Below are positions 2,436-11,679 of a stretch of DNA of 12,217 nt, piece by piece. Where the stretch lies: positions 1 to 12,217 of the forward strand of contig BNWE01000039.1 of NCBI GenBank assembly GCA_025998595.1. Reading direction: 5' to 3'. The first letter of the stretch is position 1. The number at the start of each line of letters is the position of its first letter. The translations under genes and the position numbers were made by a program. Source of the DNA: Alphaproteobacteria bacterium. Its GTDB lineage: Bacteria > Pseudomonadota > Alphaproteobacteria > UBA3830. Below the pieces are notes generated by a model that saw only the letters and a program-made list of their open reading frames with translations, was not told the DNA's origin and ran no database searches.

Positions 2436-3134
2436 TCATTTTTTGATCAAATCATATCCACTTTGCGCGACTTCCAGGAGTGCTTTTCGGATTTTCGAGA
2501 TATCTCTTTTTGCCTCCTCGTCATTATTTGCAGCCAGTCCAACCAATACCACGTCAACTTCCGCTAGACGACCTTCTGCTATCATTTTTTCAGTCTTCTT
2601 ACCACGAAGTTCTATCATCGCTTTATCCAATCGCGATACCTCACCAAGGTGTGAAAGTGTATTAAAGTGGAATGCAATTCCTATCGGTTTTGGAAATTCA
2701 AAATCTATTGTTTTACAATTCCATTGGGAGTACATATGATATAGCCCATTTTTGAGCTTGACTATTTGAGCTTTAACATCGGTTTCCATTTTTTGATCGC
2801 AGATTTTTTTTGCCACAGCAAGCAGATAGTTAAGCTTCATCTTAGCTTTAAAGAAATCCCCCTTTTCAATCAAGTCGTTGTGATCCAATGCATCATAATA
2901 TATCTTAACAATTTCAAAAAAATATTCATTATTTTTCAATAGATAGTGTTTATGATCCATTCCAATTATAGTCTTAACTTTAACGGACGAACCTTTAATG
3001 CTATCTAACAACTTTATAAGTATACGATTTCCCATTCCATCCATTCCATTGGGAACTTCGAACGTTTCCATAGCATCCAACGATGTCGCGCCTGCTAACA
3101 AACCAATTGCAACAGCAATTTTCTTTATATCCAT
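2436..3134 (-). CDS. Putative secreted protein of unknown function
   Basis: This gene encodes 232 residues and I do not recognise a family. The N-terminus MDIKKIAVAIGLLAGATSLDA has a short basic start, a hydrophobic core and a plausible signal peptidase I site after about residue 21 (LDA before METF), so export to the periplasm or beyond is likely. The mature part is mixed charged and looks mostly helical: several Lys/Glu-rich stretches (about residues 85-125) and a C-terminal helix-prone tail with many Lys, Glu and Ala. It has two Cys, one in KKICDQ and one in WNCKT, and no transmembrane helix beyond the signal. The start is supported by GGAG six bases upstream. The gene stands alone, with its own promoter and about 190 bases after gap, so it is probably a separate transcription unit. 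A signal-bearing orphan in a symbiont-like genome could be a host-interaction protein, but nothing here shows that. Confidence 0.75.
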   Translation of the reverse strand: MDIKKIAVAIGLLAGATSLDAMETFEVPNGMDGMGNRILIKLLDSIKGSSVKVKTIIGMDHKHYLLKNNEYFFEIVKIYYDALDHNDLIEKGDFFKAKMKLNYLLAVAKKICDQKMETDVKAQIVKLKNGLYHMYSQWNCKTIDFEFPKPIGIAFHFNTLSHLGEVSRLDKAMIELRGKKTEKMIAEGRLAEVDVVLVGLAANNDEEAKRDISKIRKALLEVAQSGYDLIKK

Positions 3135-6390: not shown

Positions 6391-6414
6391 CAGGCATTTT
6401 TAAAATAATGCCTG
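6391..6414 (-). terminator. Hairpin at the 3' end of tatD (terminator-like, no U-tract)
   Basis: A perfect 8-base stem, CAGGCATT (6391-6398) with AATGCCTG (6407-6414), has an 8-base loop that contains the tatD stop codon. No run of T follows on the minus strand, so it may slow RNA decay or weakly stop transcription rather than act as a strong intrinsic terminator. Confidence 0.35.
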
Positions 6415-7653
6415 TGCATTATGCACTTTAGCTCTGGAATACAACTTAAAGAAGTTTTTTGATGTTCGGGAAGCAACTTCCTCTTCCGTCACGCCCAGAA
6501 GCTCGGCGATTTTCTTGGCAGTGTGCACTACGAACGCCGGCTCGTTTACCTTTCCCCGAAATGGAGCTGGAGCCAGAAATGGCGCATCTGTTTCCACTAG
6601 TAATCTATCCAGTGGAATGCTTTTGACTATTTCCTGAAGTGCAGTATTGCTCTTAAATGTAATCACTCCGGAAATCGATATGTAAAATCCTAAATCAAGC
6701 GCCTGAAATGCAAATTCTTTACTGCCGCTAAAGCAGTGTATGACTCCGGTAACTCCTGGATGGTTCCTAAGAATAGCAATGGTATCAGACTCCGCCTCTC
6801 TAGAATGTATACAGACCGCCAACGTGACGTTGGATCCGTTTTCTGCTTGGTTGCCTTCTGAAAGGTATGCGAGCATTGTCTTCGATGCCGGAGTGGAATT
6901 GAAGTTATTCTGGATCCCTACGTTGGTGCTTGCAGCACATGCGTTTTCTCTTGCTGAAACAGCTTCAGCATTGCAAGTACATCTCGCATACCCCTCCGCT
7001 GGAGGCAAAGCAGAAAGCGAGTCCAGCGTCACGCTGGTGCTTGCAGCACACGCGTTTTCTCTTGCTGAAGCAGCTTCAGCATTGCAAGTACATCTCGCAT
7101 ACCCATCCGCTGGAGGCAAAGCAGAAAGCGAGTCCAGCGTCACGCTGGTGCTTGCAGCACATGCGTTTTCTCTTGACGAAGCAGCTTCAGCATTGCAAGT
7201 ACATCTCGCATACGTTTCGGAAGGTGGCGAAGCCATTTTTGGATCCAACGTCACGTTGGCAAGTTGTAGTTCGAATAATTCCTTCTGTTCCTTTGCGCTT
7301 TCCTTTGTGTAGTAGTAGTCAAGGCCGATTTCGCCAATTCCCACGCATTTCGTGTTATTACAGTGAGCGTTGATGATGCGAGAAATTTCGTCTAGCGAAT
7401 ATTGCTGATAATGTTTCTGTGCCTCCAATGGATGAACGCCAATGGTGTGAAACACGTTATCATGAGATGCTGAAATCGCCTGCATTTCCTCAATATCAGA
7501 AAGCTCTGTGCCGATATTCAAGATGTATTCCACATTGGCATTTTTTGCGCGTTCCACAATTGCACCAATGGAATAGTCATCTGAAGAAGACGCCTCAGCT
7601 ATTTTCGAGAATTTCTTCAGATTTAAATGGCAGTGCGAATCAACGTAAGACAT
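6400..7653 (-). CDS. tatD: TatD-family metal-dependent DNase/hydrolase with a large in-frame repeat insertion
   Basis: TatD proteins are cytoplasmic TIM-barrel metallohydrolases with 3'-5' exonuclease activity in known members. All expected metal ligands are visible: H7 and H9 (DSHCHLN), E108 (GEIGLDYYY), H283 (CIHSREAESD), H306 (VIHCFSG) and D356 (ETDAPFL). The protein is 417 residues against about 260-270 for the family. The excess is residues about 133-279, a Cys/Ala-rich block of 37-residue repeats (ARCTCNAEA..., ENACAAS...VTLDSLSALPPA) between the helix ending ELQLA and the strand VCIHS. The insert replaces the usual short KELxLP loop, and the barrel resumes in frame, so the enzyme may still fold with a surface protrusion. 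The start at 7653 is four bases after the metG stop, with AGGA upstream; the longer frame to 7710 lies inside metG and precedes the conserved MSYVDSHCHLN. It is the second gene of a metG-tatD operon. Confidence 0.93.
   Translation of the reverse strand: MSYVDSHCHLNLKKFSKIAEASSSDDYSIGAIVERAKNANVEYILNIGTELSDIEEMQAISASHDNVFHTIGVHPLEAQKHYQQYSLDEISRIINAHCNNTKCVGIGEIGLDYYYTKESAKEQKELFELQLANVTLDPKMASPPSETYARCTCNAEAASSRENACAASTSVTLDSLSALPPADGYARCTCNAEAASARENACAASTSVTLDSLSALPPAEGYARCTCNAEAVSARENACAASTNVGIQNNFNSTPASKTMLAYLSEGNQAENGSNVTLAVCIHSREAESDTIAILRNHPGVTGVIHCFSGSKEFAFQALDLGFYISISGVITFKSNTALQEIVKSIPLDRLLVETDAPFLAPAPFRGKVNEPAFVVHTAKKIAELLGVTEEEVASRTSKNFFKLYSRAKVHNAQALF
6818..7260. mobile_element. 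Palindromic repeat element inserted in frame in tatD, with 20-base perfect terminal inverted repeats
   Basis: Bases 6818-6837 (GCCAACGTGACGTTGGATCC) are the exact reverse complement of 7241-7260. Each end also contains its own small palindrome (CCAACGT-G-ACGTTGG). Inside, 6818-6924 is one inverted repeat unit and 6925-7257 holds three direct 111-base units. On the plus strand the left end reads NVTLDP and the right end GSNVTLA, and the minus strand reads the same two peptides, so insertion in either orientation yields similar termini. No open reading frame for a transposase is present; the element would be non-autonomous. It behaves like the Rickettsia palindromic elements known to insert in genes, but the sequence is not one I recognise. 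No target-site duplication was apparent. Confidence 0.85.
6925..7257. repeat. Three direct tandem copies of a 111-base unit
   Basis: Copies are 6925-7035, 7036-7146 and 7147-7257. The first two differ at only 3 of 111 positions; the third matches them over the first 67 bases with a few changes and then diverges to the TIR-type end. As 111 is 37 codons, changes in copy number keep the tatD frame. Each unit holds several small palindromes, such as CCAGCGT-C-ACGCTGG (7023-7037), GCTGAAGC-A-GCTTCAGC (7064-7080) and CCTCC-GCT-GGAGG (6993-7005). The high identity suggests recent amplification or gene conversion. Confidence 0.95.
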
Positions 7654-11572: not shown

Positions 11573-11679
11573 CCAGCGATGCTTGCAGCACTAACGTGGC
11601 GCTGGCTCCGTTACTAATTCAGCATTGCCAATACATACCGCATACGATGTAACCATAAACGGACCCAACGTCACCTTGG
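11573..11679. repeat. Diverged single copy of the tatD-insert repeat unit
   Basis: GCTTGCAGCAC (11581-11591) is identical to the unit start in tatD. The stretch 11618-11646 matches 25 of 29 bases of the unit's middle (TTCAGCATTGC... CGCATACG), and 11661-11679 matches 17 of 19 bases of its end (GGACCCAACGTCACCTTGG). It is about ten bases shorter, in the same orientation as the tatD units, and begins 24 bases upstream of the Rel start codon. It shows that the family is dispersed and not confined to a gene. Confidence 0.8.

Follow-up and report, generated by a model that had tools for sequence, protein, structure and literature searches.

A palindromic repeat with a unit of about 111 bp is dispersed in Holosporaceae-like alphaproteobacterial genomes related to Holospora, and several of its units lie in frame inside a tatD gene in the 12,217-nucleotide stretch of DNA analysed here (the window). 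We take it to be a small non-autonomous mobile repeat whose in-frame copies are tolerated in genes, which has spread in Holosporaceae-like bacteria, and whose array in TatD has grown by duplication; we put the probability of this reading at roughly 0.88. It draws on the dispersal of the repeat among unrelated genes, on insert-free sites in relatives, on the keeping of the reading frame, and on covariation in the hairpins of the unit.

Structure of the insertion in tatD

The tatD gene (6400..7653, minus strand) is a stop-free frame of 417 codons whose 417-residue product matches Pfam TatD_DNase (E 4.6e-75) in two separate stretches. The element array (6818..7260, minus strand, 443 bp) occupies codons 132-279 in frame and without a stop, its outermost bases being base 1 of codon 132 and base 2 of codon 279. 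At its ends stand the perfect 20-bp inverted repeats that the initial annotation had described, with arms at 6818..6837 and 7241..7260 that are 100% complementary. The same annotation had taken the block for a single 443-base unit with 20-base ends; it is indeed palindromic, but it is built as an array of units of about 111 bp. Inside it are three tandem 111-bp units and one partial inverted unit. Tandem units 1 (6928..7037), 2 (7039..7148) and 3 (7150..7259), all on the plus strand, follow a 111-bp period, and the partial unit (6819..6899, minus strand) corresponds to positions 30-110 of the profile model in inverted orientation. Units 2 and 3 share 108/111 and 88/111 bases with unit 1, with identities of about 96% and 80%; unit 3 differs from unit 2, as from unit 1, at 23/111 positions. 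Because the partial inverted unit closes the block, the 20-base inverted repeat consists of the ends of opposed units.

The palindromes within the array tell the units apart. The two terminal palindromes, CCAACGTGACGTTGG at 6819..6833 and CCAACGTCACGTTGG at 7245..7259, have the form CCAACGTsACGTTGG, and those between units, CCAGCGTCACGCTGG at both 7023..7037 and 7134..7148, have the form CCAGCGTsACGCTGG, with both arms altered together. The first hairpin of unit 3, GTGCTTGCAGCAC at 7148..7160, carries the covarying stem of the family, GTGnn/nnCAC. The 443-bp block is a nested, tandemly amplified composite of a repeat of about 111 bp and not a simple inverted-repeat transposon. Since units 1 and 2 differ at 3/111 positions and might be miscounted in a short-read assembly, it could be asked whether the whole block is an assembly artefact of the window; this is scarcely credible, as the TatD protein P0001, from a separate record, has an insert at the same site and the repeat is widespread in the related genome G014. 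The exact number of tandem units in the window could nevertheless be wrong.

A second, degenerate copy of the unit lies between genes at 11581..11679 (plus strand), upstream of spoT. In SpoT, G014 is 91% identical to the window, and genomes G017, G018 and G020 are 88% identical. The unit is absent from the orthologous place in G014, where the intervening sequence has been replaced and the borders are not clean. G017, which is nearly free of the element, has one weak unit (L171:3749-3835) 167 bases upstream of spoT.

Other features of the window were also observed. Positions 1-323 form a 323-base block with 36-base inverted ends that are 97% complementary; because it lies right at the beginning of the window, another repeat may mark the end of the contig. 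The fetched stretches of G014 and G020 yielded no DNA similar to it. Positions 324-2430, about 2.1 kb without a convincing open reading frame (ORF), show weak collinear tblastx similarity (E 8.6e-6) to a locus of genome G031 (L167, itself fetched with a Y1 transposase query), and are possibly a decayed insertion sequence. A 232-residue ORF at 2436-3134 has a signal-like N-terminus and no Pfam match.

TatD relatives, age of the insertion and predicted structure

In alignments of 12 and 25 TatD proteins, residues H7, H9, E108, H283, H306 and D356, which we take from family knowledge and from the list in the initial annotation to be the TatD metal ligands, all occupy columns with no variation or with conservation of 90% or more, so the claim that all six ligands are kept holds. 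The barrel fold together with these six ligands places the protein in the TatD family. Of 7,999 matches, the 120 best served for comparison with relatives, and both anchor motifs were found in 118 of these. Between the anchors there are 33-37 residues in 117 of the 118 and 95 in P0001 (FACS189472_01940), as compared with 173 in the window. P0001 is thus alone among the 118 measured relatives in having an insert, which occupies the same site and is shorter. The initial annotation had proposed aligning the protein with homologues; P0001 apart, the insert has no counterpart in the relatives, and the barrel matches on both sides. In the 25-protein alignment the stretch numbers 148 residues for the window and 70 for P0001, with 9 for all the other 23. 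An addition of about 147 residues had been claimed; the insert is in frame, but its 148 residues replace about nine host residues, and the net gain over relatives is 139. The element block raises the length of TatD by about half.

P0001 and the window TatD are 81% identical. The first and last parts of the P0001 insert match those of the window and the two extra tandem units are missing, and therefore the insertion, common to the FACS189472 lineage, seems from this comparison to predate the tandem growth in the lineage of the window. The nearest named relatives among the matches listed are from Holosporaceae bacteria or an unplaced alphaproteobacterium. When 5.8 billion proteins were searched with the TatD insert (7,993 candidates), it was found in at least two, both from FACS189472. 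A BioA-like protein of FACS189472 also bears the element; it is short and scores below the NCBIfam cut-off for bioA. A search of the same 5.8 billion proteins with the insert of MnmA, one of the G014 hosts described below, returned at least one protein, MnmA itself. The second module of the P0001 insert, an HPEERSDVG-like peptide, was not found as a DNA repeat in 475 kb of G014 or 657 kb of G020 by a search with guessed codon patterns, which may be wrong.

The tatD query matched 45 of the 49 genomes of one order. In G014 the match lay solely within the insert, and in the other 44 it lay in TatD on one or both sides of the insert; among the 49 genomes, no TatD match entered the insert beyond a few end residues. 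One weak insert-like stretch, with three stops, lies elsewhere in genome G038. The TatD gene was not found in G014, the nearest element-rich genome, which therefore offers no view of the TatD site.

An AlphaFold2 model built from the 25-sequence alignment has pLDDT of at least 90 in 189/417 residues, a level reached by most of the host portion. In the model, insert residues 133-278 lie between a helix (117-132) and a strand (279-285), and pLDDT falls below 50 at residues 151-158 and 160-274 of the insert and also in a host loop (361-371). The top Foldseek matches are TatD structures, 6l25_A first (TM 0.87 by target) and 1yix_A among them. The simplest reading of the model, with its barrel kept and its insert at low confidence, is that the insert would be an unstructured surface excursion, which agrees with the surface position that the initial annotation had suggested.

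Dispersal of the repeat among genomes

Exact CCARCGTSACGYTGG sites number 81 in G014 and one to four in seven of the 48 other genomes of the order, and a control with the reversed pattern found none in any of the 49. Among 385 genomes drawn from the class, 52 have at least one site, and only G014 (81) and G161 (63) have more than three; the reversed control gave a single site each in four genomes. When the 385 genomes were searched with a 113-base unit query, with at most two candidates scored per genome, a long match was found only in G014 and matches over 20 bases in two others. A profile built from one unit gave 111 matches, merged into 89 places, in 40 stretches of G014 (459,336 bases) that had been chosen for holding matches, and the same profile gave two matches in 657 kb of G020. 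A distant-mode search of a plasmid collection gave no matches. The claim of a mobile palindromic repeat is supported by this dispersal in a related genome and by the in-frame copies in other genes described below.

In G161, the palindrome-pattern sites inspected (10 listed among the 63, and 9 in 32 kb) are CCAGCGTsACGCTGG, and some are chained with GCAACGTCACGTTGC. The end hairpin is shared with the repeat and the unit is not: within the 32 kb examined there is no full unit, and hairpin chains are found instead.

Copies within genes and the keeping of the reading frame

Of the 89 places in G014, 39 lie wholly within 32 ORFs of at least 288 aa. The in-ORF share is 44%, as against 58% for random windows; long ORFs therefore contain somewhat fewer copies than chance would give, yet are by no means free of them. 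Of the 32 host ORFs, 30 match Pfam at E 1e-3, although one of these (L141) is below the curated cut-off and a few, for example L127:3-7613 and L125, match at one end only. The hosts include DNA polymerase I (polA), MutS, NAD-dependent DNA ligase (ligA), formate-tetrahydrofolate ligase, MurJ, a PP-loop protein taken as TilS, MnmA, TruB, MreC, RecO, Kdo transferase, a mevalonate diphosphate decarboxylase-like protein and an integrase. Three of the G020 orthologues are, per NCBIfam, FolC, an MtaB-type methylthiotransferase and HscB. Where solved homologues of MutS, formate-tetrahydrofolate ligase and a thiamine diphosphate enzyme were aligned with the host proteins, both flanks align and the insert is skipped; for TruB the alignment with the solved homologue gaps at the insert.

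This distribution bears on a reading in which certain TatD proteins have inherited the insert vertically as a normal additional domain or long linker. The insert is open, is flanked by a helix and a strand, and occurs in two related proteins, as a domain might. The short spacing between anchors in 117 of 118 relatives and the presence of the same sequence in dozens of unrelated genes both argue against it, and leave it with next to no probability. As a TatD domain passed down by inheritance, the insert is ruled out by its multi-gene distribution.

The frame of the copies was examined in two ways. The unit consensus has exactly one stop-free frame per orientation, and 39 of 50 in-gene profile matches lie in that frame (21/26 in sense and 18/24 in antisense orientation). 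These 50 include overlapping matches on both strands at the same place and, because genes were defined as open ORFs, closed frames were hardly able to appear, so the result is partly by construction and the comparison with G020 is the better test. In that comparison, which set the G014 stretches against 2,051 ORFs taken from 657 kb of G020, 14 genes have sense homology to G020 on both sides of the element. The frame is open and in frame across the element in 13 of these 14. The one broken frame (L151:1249-1866, on an element-rich contig of G014) has three stops in the element region and no NCBIfam match. The 14 leave out opposite-strand matches, two rows of 32% identity in a glycosyltransferase ORF (L129), and L145 4236-4483, which was taken for an antisense frame and whose G014 frame has stops outside the element; if this last row were counted as a gene, the tally would be 13/15.

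The 13 genes hold 17 sites, and at 15 of these G014 has a net gain of 13-73 residues, including gains of the length of a single unit in mreC (36) and mnmA (37). The sites without a net gain are in MurJ (-1) and at the first of three in TilS (-6), where G020 has other sequence. Some host residues have been replaced and not merely displaced, as with the nine in TatD. None of the 13 G020 orthologues contains a match to the unit profile.

Outside long ORFs, near-complete matches have an open plus frame in 18/19 and an open minus frame in 10/19, and the remaining frames have about 1.6 stops each on average. When the consensus was shuffled, 17% of the shuffles had a stop-free frame on both strands; the openness of the unit is therefore no proof of adaptation.

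At L128:8395-9981 in G014, a single open frame leads from DapF through the element into RNase HI, and residues 348 to 433 contain no ATG. Unless another start codon is used, dapF and rnhA may have been fused by the element in this genome. The stretches fetched from G020 included no counterpart.

Covariation and folding of the hairpins

Covariation was measured in 21 aligned copies, which are the 22 that passed the filter less the window copy at 6925-7037. The end stems GTGnn/nnCAC and CCARCG/CGYTGG are paired in 93.3% and 93.7% of alignment cells, and a middle stem in 73.8%. At the best pairs, both sides have changed in 10/21 and 9/21 sequences. Over the three stems together, 85.2% of cells are paired and 33 cells are changed on both sides, as against 14.9 in shuffles, and both values are above all 500 shuffles. 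The covariation score is 0.291, as against 0.170 for shuffled alignments (reached by 0/500) and at most 0.090 for slid controls. The number of pairs with a both-sided change (7 vs 6.3) is not above shuffles (223/500), and the number of further pair types (25 vs 21.9) is borderline (30/500). As the covariation tool cautions, related sequences can beat shuffles without structure. RNAalifold applied to the 21 copies returned only the two end hairpins. Copies in genes, 16 of them with two from the window, pair as well (74/80 and 89/96 for the two stems) as the five outside genes (24/25 and 29/30). On the evidence of the aligned copies, it is by compensatory changes that the end hairpins appear to be held.

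As RNA, the TatD array folds as a long palindrome (-188.3 kcal/mol, z -8.3). A single unit folds with z -2.1, and 4/200 shuffles fold equally well. Strong hairpins in the message would suit a mechanism that removes the insert before or during protein synthesis, whether an intron, an intein or translational bypass, as with the byps of yeast mitochondria. A segment that is removed could hold stops and be of any length, yet 13 of the 14 genes compared are in frame and free of stops; moreover, the TatD of the window has no Pfam match besides TatD_DNase, and an Rfam search of the window at the gathering score gave no matches. Removal of the insert is consequently considered most improbable.

Proposed mobilization and retention of copies

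The ends of the unit are informative about how it might move. A left half site like CCARCGTGACG (at most three mismatches) precedes the first hairpin in 11 of 40 near-full-length matches, two of the 11 being the window's own tandem units. Inspection of flanks and of the spoT site recognised no target duplication, the relatives being too diverged at the DNA level. A frequent foot, GGAT/GGGT/GAGT, stands before the last hairpin of the unit. No mobilising gene was found: a Y1 transposase match above the cut-off is present in 5 of the 15 genomes searched, including one in G014, which is richest in copies, where it is a 44-residue fragment in an assembly of many contigs.

One possible source of such a repeat is a classical MITE, which is what remains of a DDE transposon, has terminal inverted repeats and target duplications, and depends for its movement on a transposase encoded elsewhere in the genome. 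The perfect 20-bp inverted repeats of the TatD array and the half site in 11/40 copies would fit such an origin, but the other 29/40 near-full-length matches have no half site, which gives most single copies two different ends, and target duplications were not recognised in the inspected flanks or at the spoT site of the window and G014. An origin as a MITE is therefore thought unlikely. A single-strand element of REP/BIME-like type or derived from IS200/IS605, whose hairpins a Y1 transposase of the RAYT type would recognise, would fit the compensatory changes in the end hairpins, the asymmetric ends, the frequent foot, the lack of a recognised target duplication and the Y1 matches. Against this, the Y1 match in G014 is a fragment, and the foot is not the canonical REP foot, which is GTAG/GGAG. 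We regard this affiliation as a tentative possibility, with the balance somewhat against it.

Our preferred reading, a tolerated non-autonomous mobile repeat, would work as follows. A unit whose length of about 111 bp is divisible by three, and which has a hairpin at each end, would spread through the host genome and those of close relatives, mobilised in trans through its end hairpins as single strands. Because the hairpins are conserved, the ends are unlike and no target duplication was recognised, we infer recognition of single strands in preference to a DDE transposase. Copies that enter an open frame at a tolerant loop would be kept and would most probably be read into protein as a disordered segment at the surface of a host protein that probably works otherwise, as the keeping of the frame and the conserved host residues suggest. 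Wrong-frame insertions in needed genes would be lost, with purifying selection acting as the filter. In TatD, an older insertion common to the FACS189472 lineage would have been followed by tandem duplication in the lineage of the window.

A more far-reaching account is that the repeat is adapted to genes: its length is divisible by three, it is readable without stops in both orientations, and compensatory changes preserve its end hairpins even within essential genes. It would move by its hairpins as a single strand and would have invaded dozens of housekeeping enzymes of a Holosporaceae-like lineage, perhaps fusing dapF and rnhA, independently of the elements of Rickettsia and Wolbachia. This account is given slightly less than an even chance.

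Relation to known repeat families

Rickettsia palindromic elements (RPE; Ogata 2000) are described, in passages of PMC2229807, PMC10969869 and PMC3767692, as dispersed palindromic repeats of 100-150 bp found in frame in conserved genes at solvent-exposed sites, with an insertion site common to orthologues and without destruction of the genes. The repeat studied here resembles them in being a dispersed 111-bp unit with inverted repeats that is in frame and stop-free in 13/14 genes and in TatD. A section of PMC3767692 describes inserts at the same site in Rickettsia orthologues that are extended past typical elements, and the extension of the TatD array parallels these. The two differ in that the host is Holosporaceae-like and not Rickettsia, that there are two small covarying end hairpins in place of the one long stem-loop of RPE, and that growth to three tandem units has occurred within one gene. 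In addition, the ATGAC motif reported for RPE-4/6/7 is absent from the unit consensus. In-frame palindromic insertions are likewise known from Wolbachia (WPE; Ogata 2005), in addA, addB and priA, as cited in PMC4224334, a passage of which mentions premature stops only in addA of six strains; Wolbachia is another host lineage.

Several other families share single traits with the repeat. ERIC and the 107-bp Correia/NEMIS elements are presented in part of PMC2229807 as MITEs with terminal inverted repeats and target duplications and, like the present repeat, as short sequences that carry open frames and can join genes in frame; most single copies here differ from them in having unlike ends and no recognised target duplication. 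Inverted repeats within protein-coding genes are also reported, in PMC6649704, for mitochondria of Nematomorpha, but those are animal organelle genes. The likeness to REP/BIME elements lies in small hairpins arrayed with a short conserved foot, and hairpin chains are also seen in G161. REP elements are extragenic, whereas many copies of the present repeat are intragenic, and a complete Y1 gene was not found in G014.

The initial annotation had inferred a family comparable to, yet different from, the elements of Rickettsia, and this is supported. To judge by its host and anatomy, the repeat would seem to form a family of its own among Holosporaceae-like bacteria, distinct from RPE and WPE. No report of such elements in Holosporales was found in the open-licence literature. 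Protein-coding palindromic repeats were earlier described for Rickettsia and then for Wolbachia, and here they apparently occur in another alphaproteobacterial line. An abundant family alongside close relatives that are almost free of the element makes two old questions testable: whether such repeats are selfish DNA that selection filters or instead supply proteins with new segments, and what enzyme is responsible for their movement. For annotation, the finding is a warning that extra segments of about 37 residues, or multiples of that length, in the proteins of these genomes can be repeats and not domains.
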